The position numbers and the translations under genes are program-made. Below, in pieces: positions 15,220-62,769 of a stretch of DNA of 64,000 nt. How positions within the stretch are numbered: position 1 is the stretch's first letter; each line of letters starts with the position of its first letter. The stretch is from Planctomycetota bacterium (GTDB taxonomy: Bacteria; Planctomycetota; Brocadiia; Brocadiales; Brocadiaceae), in the NCBI GenBank assembly GCA_016873165.1, contig VGXV01000003.1, positions 1 to 64,000 on the forward strand, written 5' to 3'. The notes beneath the pieces were generated by a model. It did no database searches and was not told where the DNA came from. It was given only the letters and a program-made list of their open reading frames with translations.

Positions 15220-16860
15220 CTATTTTTCGGATAGCGGCGACTTGTATTCCGTACGCCGATACAAATCTATTTCTCCGGGAAATGTTTTGAGCAATTTCAA
15301 CTCATCATGATGCGCAGGGGTTTTCAGTTCGGGGATTTTTATGCCGCCAATTGGCGATTTTTCCCGTGTTACAACGAGATATTGAGCGCCGTAAGCATCC
15401 ATGTGCTCTATTAATTTTCCATATTTTGTCGTATTGGGAATAGCTATAGCATCGCCTCCTGCAAAGAAAGCCGGCGCGCTGTCATCTGCTACAATTCTTA
15501 TCCTTTGCTCTCCCTTTAAATCTTTTTTAACATAGTCGCCAACGCCACGATAGCGGAAATGTCTCCAGTTTTCCCCCCGGCCAATATGCCGCGTCATTTT
15601 TATCATCGGCAACAGAATCATAAAAACAACGATTATTATTTTCAATGTGTGCGGTCTAAAGCGAAAAAACGCGAGTCGTTGCTGAACCCATTCGCTTATT
15701 CCCGCCAATCCGATTGCCATCAAAACTGAAAAAACAGGAAGATAAGGAATCAGCAACCGGTCTGTCCCCTCCCGAAACGAAAGGGTGAGCAAAGGGAAAA
15801 ATCCGGCCCATATGCCGTGAAATATCTTTTCCTGCACAATTCCCCGCCCCCGCCGTATGCCAAAGAATAAGAGAATAAATCCAAATCCAAAAAAAAGGAT
15901 TTCTGCCAGGGGTTTAAAATAGGTAATGGTGTTGCACAAATAACGTTTTGTTAATTCAGGCGCATTCAATCTGATGTAACGTCCCGGATTGAAATCCGCC
16001 GGATGGGTAACAGACGGCCACAAAGGATCAAACGACCTTGGCGCCCAGGCGGGATCAAATGATTTGGGCGGTCTTTTATCCGGCGTGCTCTGATACCAGA
16101 TCAGGTTTACACTGTTTCCCCCCAGACTGAAATGGCCGGTCGCTGTTTTTAACATATGCCAGTAGGGAAGACAGGCTACCGTCAATGCAATGGCCGCGGC
16201 AATAACGCACAGAAAACACTTTGCGCGTTCTTTCCACTTGCATACGATCAATATAACAATTCCCGCAGGGAGAAGAAGAAAACTTTCACTCCTGCAAAAA
16301 TACGCAGCGGCGCAAAAGAGTCCAAAGAAAACACTGGAAATCACTGATTTAAAGGTTGTTTGCCTGCAGGATGACAACAAAAAACCTAACGCAATAATGG
16401 AGAATAAAGCATTTGAAGTTTCTGATAATGCTTCAGACCCTGCATGGGCAAAAAATGGATTTACGGCAAGCAGCGCTGCGGAGTATAGCGCATAACGGTT
16501 TGGCAAAAATTGTTTCGCTGTCCAAAATACAGCAGGAATTGAAAGGGCGCCGCAGAATAGCGAGACAATATGCCCTGTCAACTCAGGATCACGAAAAAAG
16601 AATAGAAATCCCGCAATAAGGTACGGATATCCTGGCTGCCGATATACCTCGATCTGTCCGGCACGCGAAAACCCTTCTCCGCGGAAAATATTCCGCGCAA
16701 GGGTAAGATAATCAAAACTGTCCCCGGACAAATGGTAATTGCCCGCTGTCAGAAATGTTGCCAAAAGGCAGTAGAATCCGGTGATAGCGAATACAATTCC
16801 CCATCCAGAGGTTTCATACCGTTCATTCTCTCCGTGCATAGCGGGTTCATTGTGTGCCAT
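15220..16860 (-). CDS. Membrane glycosyltransferase of the GT39/ArnT-like (PMT) type
   Basis: A 546-residue protein with about ten membrane segments. It has the early acidic motif LSGDSFDYLTLARN in the first periplasmic loop, followed by RQPGYPYLIAGFLFF, as in dolichyl/undecaprenyl-phosphate-sugar transferases of the PMT_2/ArnT clan. Such enzymes move a sugar from a lipid carrier to lipid A, protein or another acceptor on the outer face of the membrane. The C-terminal 100 residues form a soluble domain. It is convergent with cysQ and stands alone. Donor and acceptor cannot be deduced. Confidence 0.75.
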   Translation of the reverse strand: MAHNEPAMHGENERYETSGWGIVFAITGFYCLLATFLTAGNYHLSGDSFDYLTLARNIFRGEGFSRAGQIEVYRQPGYPYLIAGFLFFFRDPELTGHIVSLFCGALSIPAVFWTAKQFLPNRYALYSAALLAVNPFFAHAGSEALSETSNALFSIIALGFLLSSCRQTTFKSVISSVFFGLFCAAAYFCRSESFLLLPAGIVILIVCKWKERAKCFLCVIAAAIALTVACLPYWHMLKTATGHFSLGGNSVNLIWYQSTPDKRPPKSFDPAWAPRSFDPLWPSVTHPADFNPGRYIRLNAPELTKRYLCNTITYFKPLAEILFFGFGFILLFFGIRRGRGIVQEKIFHGIWAGFFPLLTLSFREGTDRLLIPYLPVFSVLMAIGLAGISEWVQQRLAFFRFRPHTLKIIIVVFMILLPMIKMTRHIGRGENWRHFRYRGVGDYVKKDLKGEQRIRIVADDSAPAFFAGGDAIAIPNTTKYGKLIEHMDAYGAQYLVVTREKSPIGGIKIPELKTPAHHDELKLLKTFPGEIDLYRRTEYKSPLSEK

Positions 16861-16925
16861 ATCGTATTTTATTGTAAGATCAAATTGTTAGATTTCACAA
16901 AAACACTCTTTGATACAAATAGTCA

Positions 16926-17065
16926 GGGAGCATTCCCAATTTTTTGTAAAATGTGGAGGTATTATGCGGGGGATAAACCACCCGCGCTACGACACATATT
17001 GCATGGTAGCGCCGATCCTTTATGGTCGGCTTTATTTTGATTTACAAAAAATTGGGAATGCTCCC
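16926..17065 (+). mobile_element. 140-bp MITE-like element, copy 1
   Basis: The ends GGGAGCATTCCCAATTTT and their reverse complement form perfect terminal inverted repeats of about 25 bases. An 8-base direct duplication AATAGTCA flanks it at 16918-16925 and 17066-17073. The 90-base interior has no reading frame of note. It is the same sequence as 60179-60318 in reverse orientation, differing only in the last terminal base. No transposase is present, so it must have been moved by a related full-length element elsewhere. Confidence 0.9.
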
Positions 17066-17169
17066 AATAGTCAGATTATATATTTCTGCCATAGAACCTT
17101 CAACGATAATCACACTTATTGCCTTGAAAGACGCTTCTTCCGAATACTCCTGGGCATAATAAATTTTTC

Positions 17170-17449
17170 GTAACACTTTAGCTTTTTGAAAAATTGCCCA
17201 TGTCTTAACCCCATGCTTCAGCATGGGGTTAAGGGGAGAAACAATCATGGGCTTCAGCCCTGAGGTAAAGTTAGCCCAATATCTTTTACTGCACCAGAAG
17301 GTCATGGCTAAAGCCGGTGTATTTATTGTGGATATCTCCGCACTAAAGTGCGGAGTTAATGGAGGTGAAATTTGCTCCATACGTCAATATTAGAGATGCC
17401 TTATAAAATAAAGGGAATCGAAGTCTTTTTCAAAAAGCTAAAGTGTTAC
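17170..17449. mobile_element. 280-bp inverted-repeat element with four internal hairpins
   Basis: Perfect 24-bp inverted repeats (17170-17193 and 17426-17449, core TAACACTTTAGCTTTTTG) bound a non-coding interior. Inside are four short hairpins. Two have TTCA loops: 17204-17233, with 13-bp arms CTTAACCCCATGC, and 17249-17260. Two have TAAA loops: 17306-17315 and 17336-17355, the latter with arms CTCCGCAC. The sequence is unrelated to the neighbouring 140-bp element. I saw no clear target duplication. It could be a MITE or a cluster of REP-like units caught between terminal repeats. Confidence 0.7.
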
Positions 17450-60178: not shown

Positions 60179-60318
60179 AGGAGCATTCCCAATTTTTTGT
60201 AAATCAAAATAAAGCCGACCATAAAGGATCGGCGCTACCATGCAATATGTGTCGTAGCGCGGGTGGTTTATCCCCCGCATAATACCTCCACATTTTACAA
60301 AAAATTGGGAATGCTCCC
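60179..60318 (-). mobile_element. 140-bp MITE-like element, copy 2
   Basis: The reverse complement of copy 1 (16926-17065), identical except for one terminal base. It has the same terminal inverted repeats of about 25 bases. The flanks TTGAAAAC (60171-60178) and ATGAAAAC (60319-60326) are an imperfect 8-base duplication. It lies between the prepilin peptidase and OmpA-type lipoprotein genes, about 70 bases before the latter's start, so it could affect that gene's expression. Confidence 0.9.
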
Positions 60319-62564: not shown

Positions 62565-62769
62565 GGGAGCATTCCAGATTTTTTGCAAAACTCATCATTT
62601 ATTATGCTTCGGCTCCGCTCAGCATGACGCTTATTGTCATCTATGAAAAAGCATGTCACCCTGAGCGGAGTCGAAGGGTTGAGTTTCTCAGTGAGATGAG
62701 GAACTTTTCATATTTGGCAGAATATACGCTAATTGTTTTATTTATTTACAAAAAATCGGGATTGCTCCT
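62565..62769. mobile_element. 205-bp relative of the MITE-like element
   Basis: The ends (GGGAGCATTCCAGATTTT at the left; the reverse complement of the right end begins AGGAGCAATCCCGATTTT) are diverged versions of the 140-bp element ends. A perfect 8-base duplication GTTTATTG flanks it at 62557-62564 and 62770-62777. The interior is different and contains the CTGAGCGGAGTCGAAGGG hairpin repeat (22-base imperfect arms around 62608-62675). It lies between hisA and the TerC-type gene. Confidence 0.85.

Follow-up and report, generated by a model that had tools for sequence, protein, structure and literature searches.

The window analysed here, a stretch of 64,000 nucleotides, belongs to the genome of a Kuenenia species, an anammox (ammonium-oxidising) bacterium, assembled as 4.05 Mb in 191 contigs. 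It contains two copies of a 140-bp MITE and a 205-bp MITE with related ends, arranged as follows.

16918–16925, no strand: left copy of the target duplication AATAGTCA, 8 bp
16926–17065, + strand: 140-bp MITE copy 1, belonging to the 16 genome copies identical over 140 bp
16926–16950, + strand: left terminal inverted repeat GGGAGCATTCCCAATTTTTTGTAAA, 25 bp
16951–17040, + strand: interior, 90 bp, without coding capacity, with two hairpins that correspond to halves, in swapped order, of a palindromic repeat widespread in Brocadiales
17011–17030, + strand: terminator-like hairpin, then TTTATTTT, within the element (consensus match only)
17041–17065, − strand: right terminal inverted repeat, 25 bp
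17066–17073, no strand: right copy of the target duplication AATAGTCA
60179–60318, − strand: 140-bp MITE copy 2, with one terminal base different and a duplication matching at 7/8 bases
62565–62769, + strand: 205-bp MITE with related ends, another interior and the exact 8-bp duplication GTTTATTG

The arms of copy 1 (16926–16950 and 17041–17065) are 25 nt long and 100% complementary, and thus the perfect terminal inverted repeats described in an earlier note on this DNA are borne out. The element is short and has no transposase gene; the longest uninterrupted frame that overlaps copy 1 (16732–17040, 102 aa) lies mostly outside it. The second copy, which the same note had matched at 139 of 140 bases, has the opposite orientation and differs from copy 1 by the single terminal base. 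The claim of an exact 8-base duplication holds for copy 1 but not for copy 2, where the duplication is not exact because TTGAAAAC and ATGAAAAC agree at only 7 of 8 bases, and in the family as a whole duplications of 8 or 9 bp occur. The 12-bp end motif is found five times in the window (at most one mismatch) versus 0.2 occurrences expected, and none of 100 shuffles attained five. The interior of the 205-bp MITE contains an imperfect hairpin around CACCCTGAGCGGAGTCGAAGGGT.

The genome-wide search for the 140-bp unit that the earlier note had proposed raised the number of full-length copies from 2 to 26, and six partial copies were found in addition. Sixteen of the full-length copies are identical over all 140 bp, while one is 143 bp long at 94% identity. 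Exact target duplications flank 21 of the 26 (8 bp in 14 cases and 9 bp in 7); one of the remaining copies lies at a contig edge, where the duplication cannot be judged, and four, including copy 2 of the window, have imperfect ones. The identification as a MITE therefore stands: an element without a gene inside, with terminal inverted repeats and exact target duplications, is dispersed in many near-identical copies. The target preference, analysed over 71 insertions, is weak and symmetric, favouring G as the first and C as the last base of the duplication and an AT-rich inner part. Promoter-directed insertion has been reported for some ISKra4 elements (PMC3942029). It was rejected here, as a simple hexamer scan revealed no enrichment in 142 flanks, and the 71 insertions keep no fixed distance to promoter-like hexamers. 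One 140-bp copy (L008, near position 1500; G000:C19:42817) is inserted shortly after the beginning of a frame reading MARPLRIDYPGAYYHITARG, which resembles a REP-associated transposase; because of this location, the frame is probably broken by the insertion.

The ends of the element are much more widespread than its interior. With up to three mismatches, the end motif occurs 164–178 times in the host genome, depending on the pattern used, and it was detected in 29 of 59 Brocadiales genomes (the host included), while a reversed control pattern gave zero occurrences. When the ends in the fetched loci were paired, 72 pairs proved to be flanked by an exact duplication of either 8 or 9 bp, delimiting elements of 122 to 761 bp, except for ISKra4 elements of 2.1–2.2 kb; an ISKra4 pair at L097, which joins a non-terminal site, was excluded from later counts. 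Related ends thus enclose several MITE families with different interiors, among them the element at 62565–62769 of the window.

A scan of the 59 genomes of the order with the ISKra4 model revealed complete transposase genes in the genome G041. The ISKra4-family element found there is 2206 bp long, has the ends GGGAGTATTCCCATTATTTTGTAAA and GGGAGTATTCCCATTTTTTTGTAAA, and three copies of it each have a duplication of their own (ACACCGTT, ATGCCGGT and AGCTACAAG). A degenerate copy of 2195 bp in G031, flanked by the duplication CTTTCGTAC, has the left end GGGAGCATTCCCAGTTTTTTGTAAA, which is one mismatch away from the MITE end, and G003 and G057 contain incomplete elements with ends of this kind. 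Altogether, the MITE ends differ from those of the ISKra4-family elements by 1–3 mismatches in 25, and the transposase of the G041 and G031 elements scores 251.8 bits against NF033572 (cut-off 205). These relatives partly answer the earlier note's call for a full-length IS with matching ends and duplication: such elements exist within the same order, but none was found in the genome of the host itself. The likeness extends to the published features of the ISKra4 family (p-MULT 4; Guerillot et al. 2014, PMC3942029), namely the terminal G and the duplications of 8 or 9 bp, and the 25-bp inverted ends fall within the 18–39 bp described for p-MULT elements, which generate duplications of these same two sizes. 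Unlike the family members, the 140-bp unit lacks a transposase, and the ends are all that it shares with them. Since it has nothing in common with the 2.2-kb element beyond these ends, simple deletion within the ISKra4 copies seen does not account for it.

Judging from these sequence comparisons, we consider it likely (probability of roughly 0.83) that the 140-bp unit is a non-autonomous transposon moved in trans by an ISKra4-family transposase. A DDE transposase of this family of prokaryotic Mutator-like elements would recognise the 25-bp ends beginning with GGGAGCATTCCC, move the unit in trans and insert it through a staggered cut of 8 or 9 bp. The interior would be cargo, apparently a junction of two tandem host palindromes caught between two such ends. 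By analogy with IS256 and TnGBS, a plausible pathway would involve a circular intermediate (PMC3942029).

Mobilisation by ISKra4 in the host species is what we infer from the match of ends and duplications. The action in trans, already suggested by the earlier note, would fit an element without genes; searches of the host assembly (191 contigs) for ISKra4, UPF0236 and related transposases gave no match. One of the ISKra4/UPF0236 searches carries little weight alone, as the control genomes also gave no match. Moreover, an IS present in many copies readily drops out of an assembly as fragmented as this one, so that the missing transposase is not proof of absence. The closed genome of a sister species (G001) has only one broken, distant ISKra4 relative with other ends. 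End pairing was also used to look for an autonomous copy in G001; among the matches listed (100 of 135 termini) the fetched pairs were MITEs, and a 3.9-kb end pair turned out to belong to two separate MITEs. Neither the element nor its ends matched anything in plasmid, phage and viral collections, and viral contigs contained no relative of the ISKra4-family transposase.

The same gap in the host assembly is what favours a driver from another family (IS256, ISH6, ISL3 or IS1595) whose ends would be alike by chance, the more so as several families, ISL3 included, give 8- or 9-bp duplications (PMC11448079). We regard this as improbable, since complete ISKra4-family ends come within 1–3 mismatches in 25, and IS256 was rejected as a candidate because its domain PF00872 has no match in the host genome. 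A case for comparison is the 187-nt Microcystis MITE driven by ISL3, which is likewise short and hairpin-forming, has 8-nt duplications and about 30 identical copies, and whose driver was named by its matching ends (PMC11448079). It differs in its ends (GGCTCTTCG) and in the transposase family, and in our case the host genome yielded no complete driver.

Much less probable still is that the element is retained as a functional RNA or a transcription terminator, its mobility being secondary. Terminator-like hairpins are indeed present within it on both strands, and it folds very strongly (z = −9.2 versus shuffles when folded as single-stranded DNA). Inverted ends alone suffice for a strong fold; moreover, the element has no Rfam match, its flanks show no fixed distance to promoters, and two sister species (G001 and G002) lack the interior as a unit.

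Comparison with these sister species bears on the age of the burst. Flank alignments crossing the junction without an insert, that is, empty sites in relatives, were obtained in G001 and/or G002 for the sites of five copies (L018, L016, L019, L021 and L002). At the site of window copy 2 the element is missing in both sisters and the spacer has diverged, while at the site of copy 1 a short, weak alignment to G002 crosses the junction without an insert. Segmental duplication or recombination of a repeat, in place of transposition, has a negligible probability as the source of the copies: many copies are identical and palindromic repeats can recombine, but the two window sites have no flanking sequence in common (27–28% identity over 200 bp, i.e., unrelated), the exact target duplications differ between copies, and the orthologous sites are empty in the sisters. 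Shared flanks were the observation that, according to the earlier note, would have spoken for segmental duplication; the unrelated flanks at the two window copies indicate instead that transposition spread them.

As sixteen copies are identical, the spread of the family appears to be recent, and the exact duplications and empty orthologous sites agree with the recent movement that had been proposed from the window. The sisters are only about 73–91% identical in the element flanks, so the burst is dated only to after the species split. A degenerate relative, 94% identical in the interior, occurs in G013, a member of another genus, which means that either the family predates the burst or there was exchange. 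A further copy is on G021:C9 (L078), a contig binned with another genus; this copy was dropped as evidence of spread to that genus, because over 3 kb the contig shows 100% identity with the window's genome, pointing to a binning error or to one and the same strain. The analysis confirms that the 140-bp element represents a real, new MITE family of a known, ordinary kind that was recently amplified. It provides a clear example of such amplification in an anammox lineage and does not overturn known transposon biology. No publication on Kuenenia MITEs was found in the open-access literature.

A possible route to a MITE interior is suggested by the palindromic repeats of the order. Bases 12–41 and 55–82 of the 90-bp interior match single palindromic repeats (GTAGCGC...GCGCTAC; for example, G020:C1:327039-327094), their order being swapped. 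This repeat has many occurrences in Brocadiales and recurs across many genomes, the number of matches in a single genome reaching 20 or more; as an intergenic palindrome of about 56 bp it was also seen in L189 (about 445–500) and L190 (about 325–385). Given the order and spacing of the repeat halves, the interior looks like a junction of two tandem copies of the palindrome that was enclosed between the ends.

In the ISKra4-family relatives, a gene for a methyltransferase of the D12/Dam class is located upstream of the transposase (L080, 722–2826, in G041; also L092, L094 and L095); the G041 transposase itself occupies L080:1411–2826. The methyltransferase resembles orphan methylases encoded by conjugative plasmids, e.g., Upf31.0, with about 53% identity. 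Four ISKra4 elements have been described to carry other genes of unknown function (PMC3942029); a Dam-like methyltransferase such as that of the 2.2-kb relatives is not mentioned in the main text of that paper, and no open-access publication on ISKra4 elements with methyltransferase passengers was found. We put forward, as a tentative and rather doubtful extension, that an ISKra4 subgroup with an orphan adenine methyltransferase of the IncP-plasmid kind might be the driver across anammox bacteria, that its ends might repeatedly enclose host palindromes and so create new MITE families, amplifying where the driver is rare or lost, and that the methyltransferase may control transposition. A likely driver family can be named for MITEs whose ends occur in about half of the Brocadiales genomes analysed, and the autonomous relative that carries the methyltransferase offers a testable lead.

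Beside copy 1, at 17170–17449, lies an unrelated MITE-like element of 280 bp. It is bounded by perfect inverted repeats of 24 bp (GTAACACTTTAGCTTTTTGAAAAA), has an exact 8-bp duplication (AATTTTTC) and contains two strong hairpins. Its ends also adjoin the palindromic repeat in L190.
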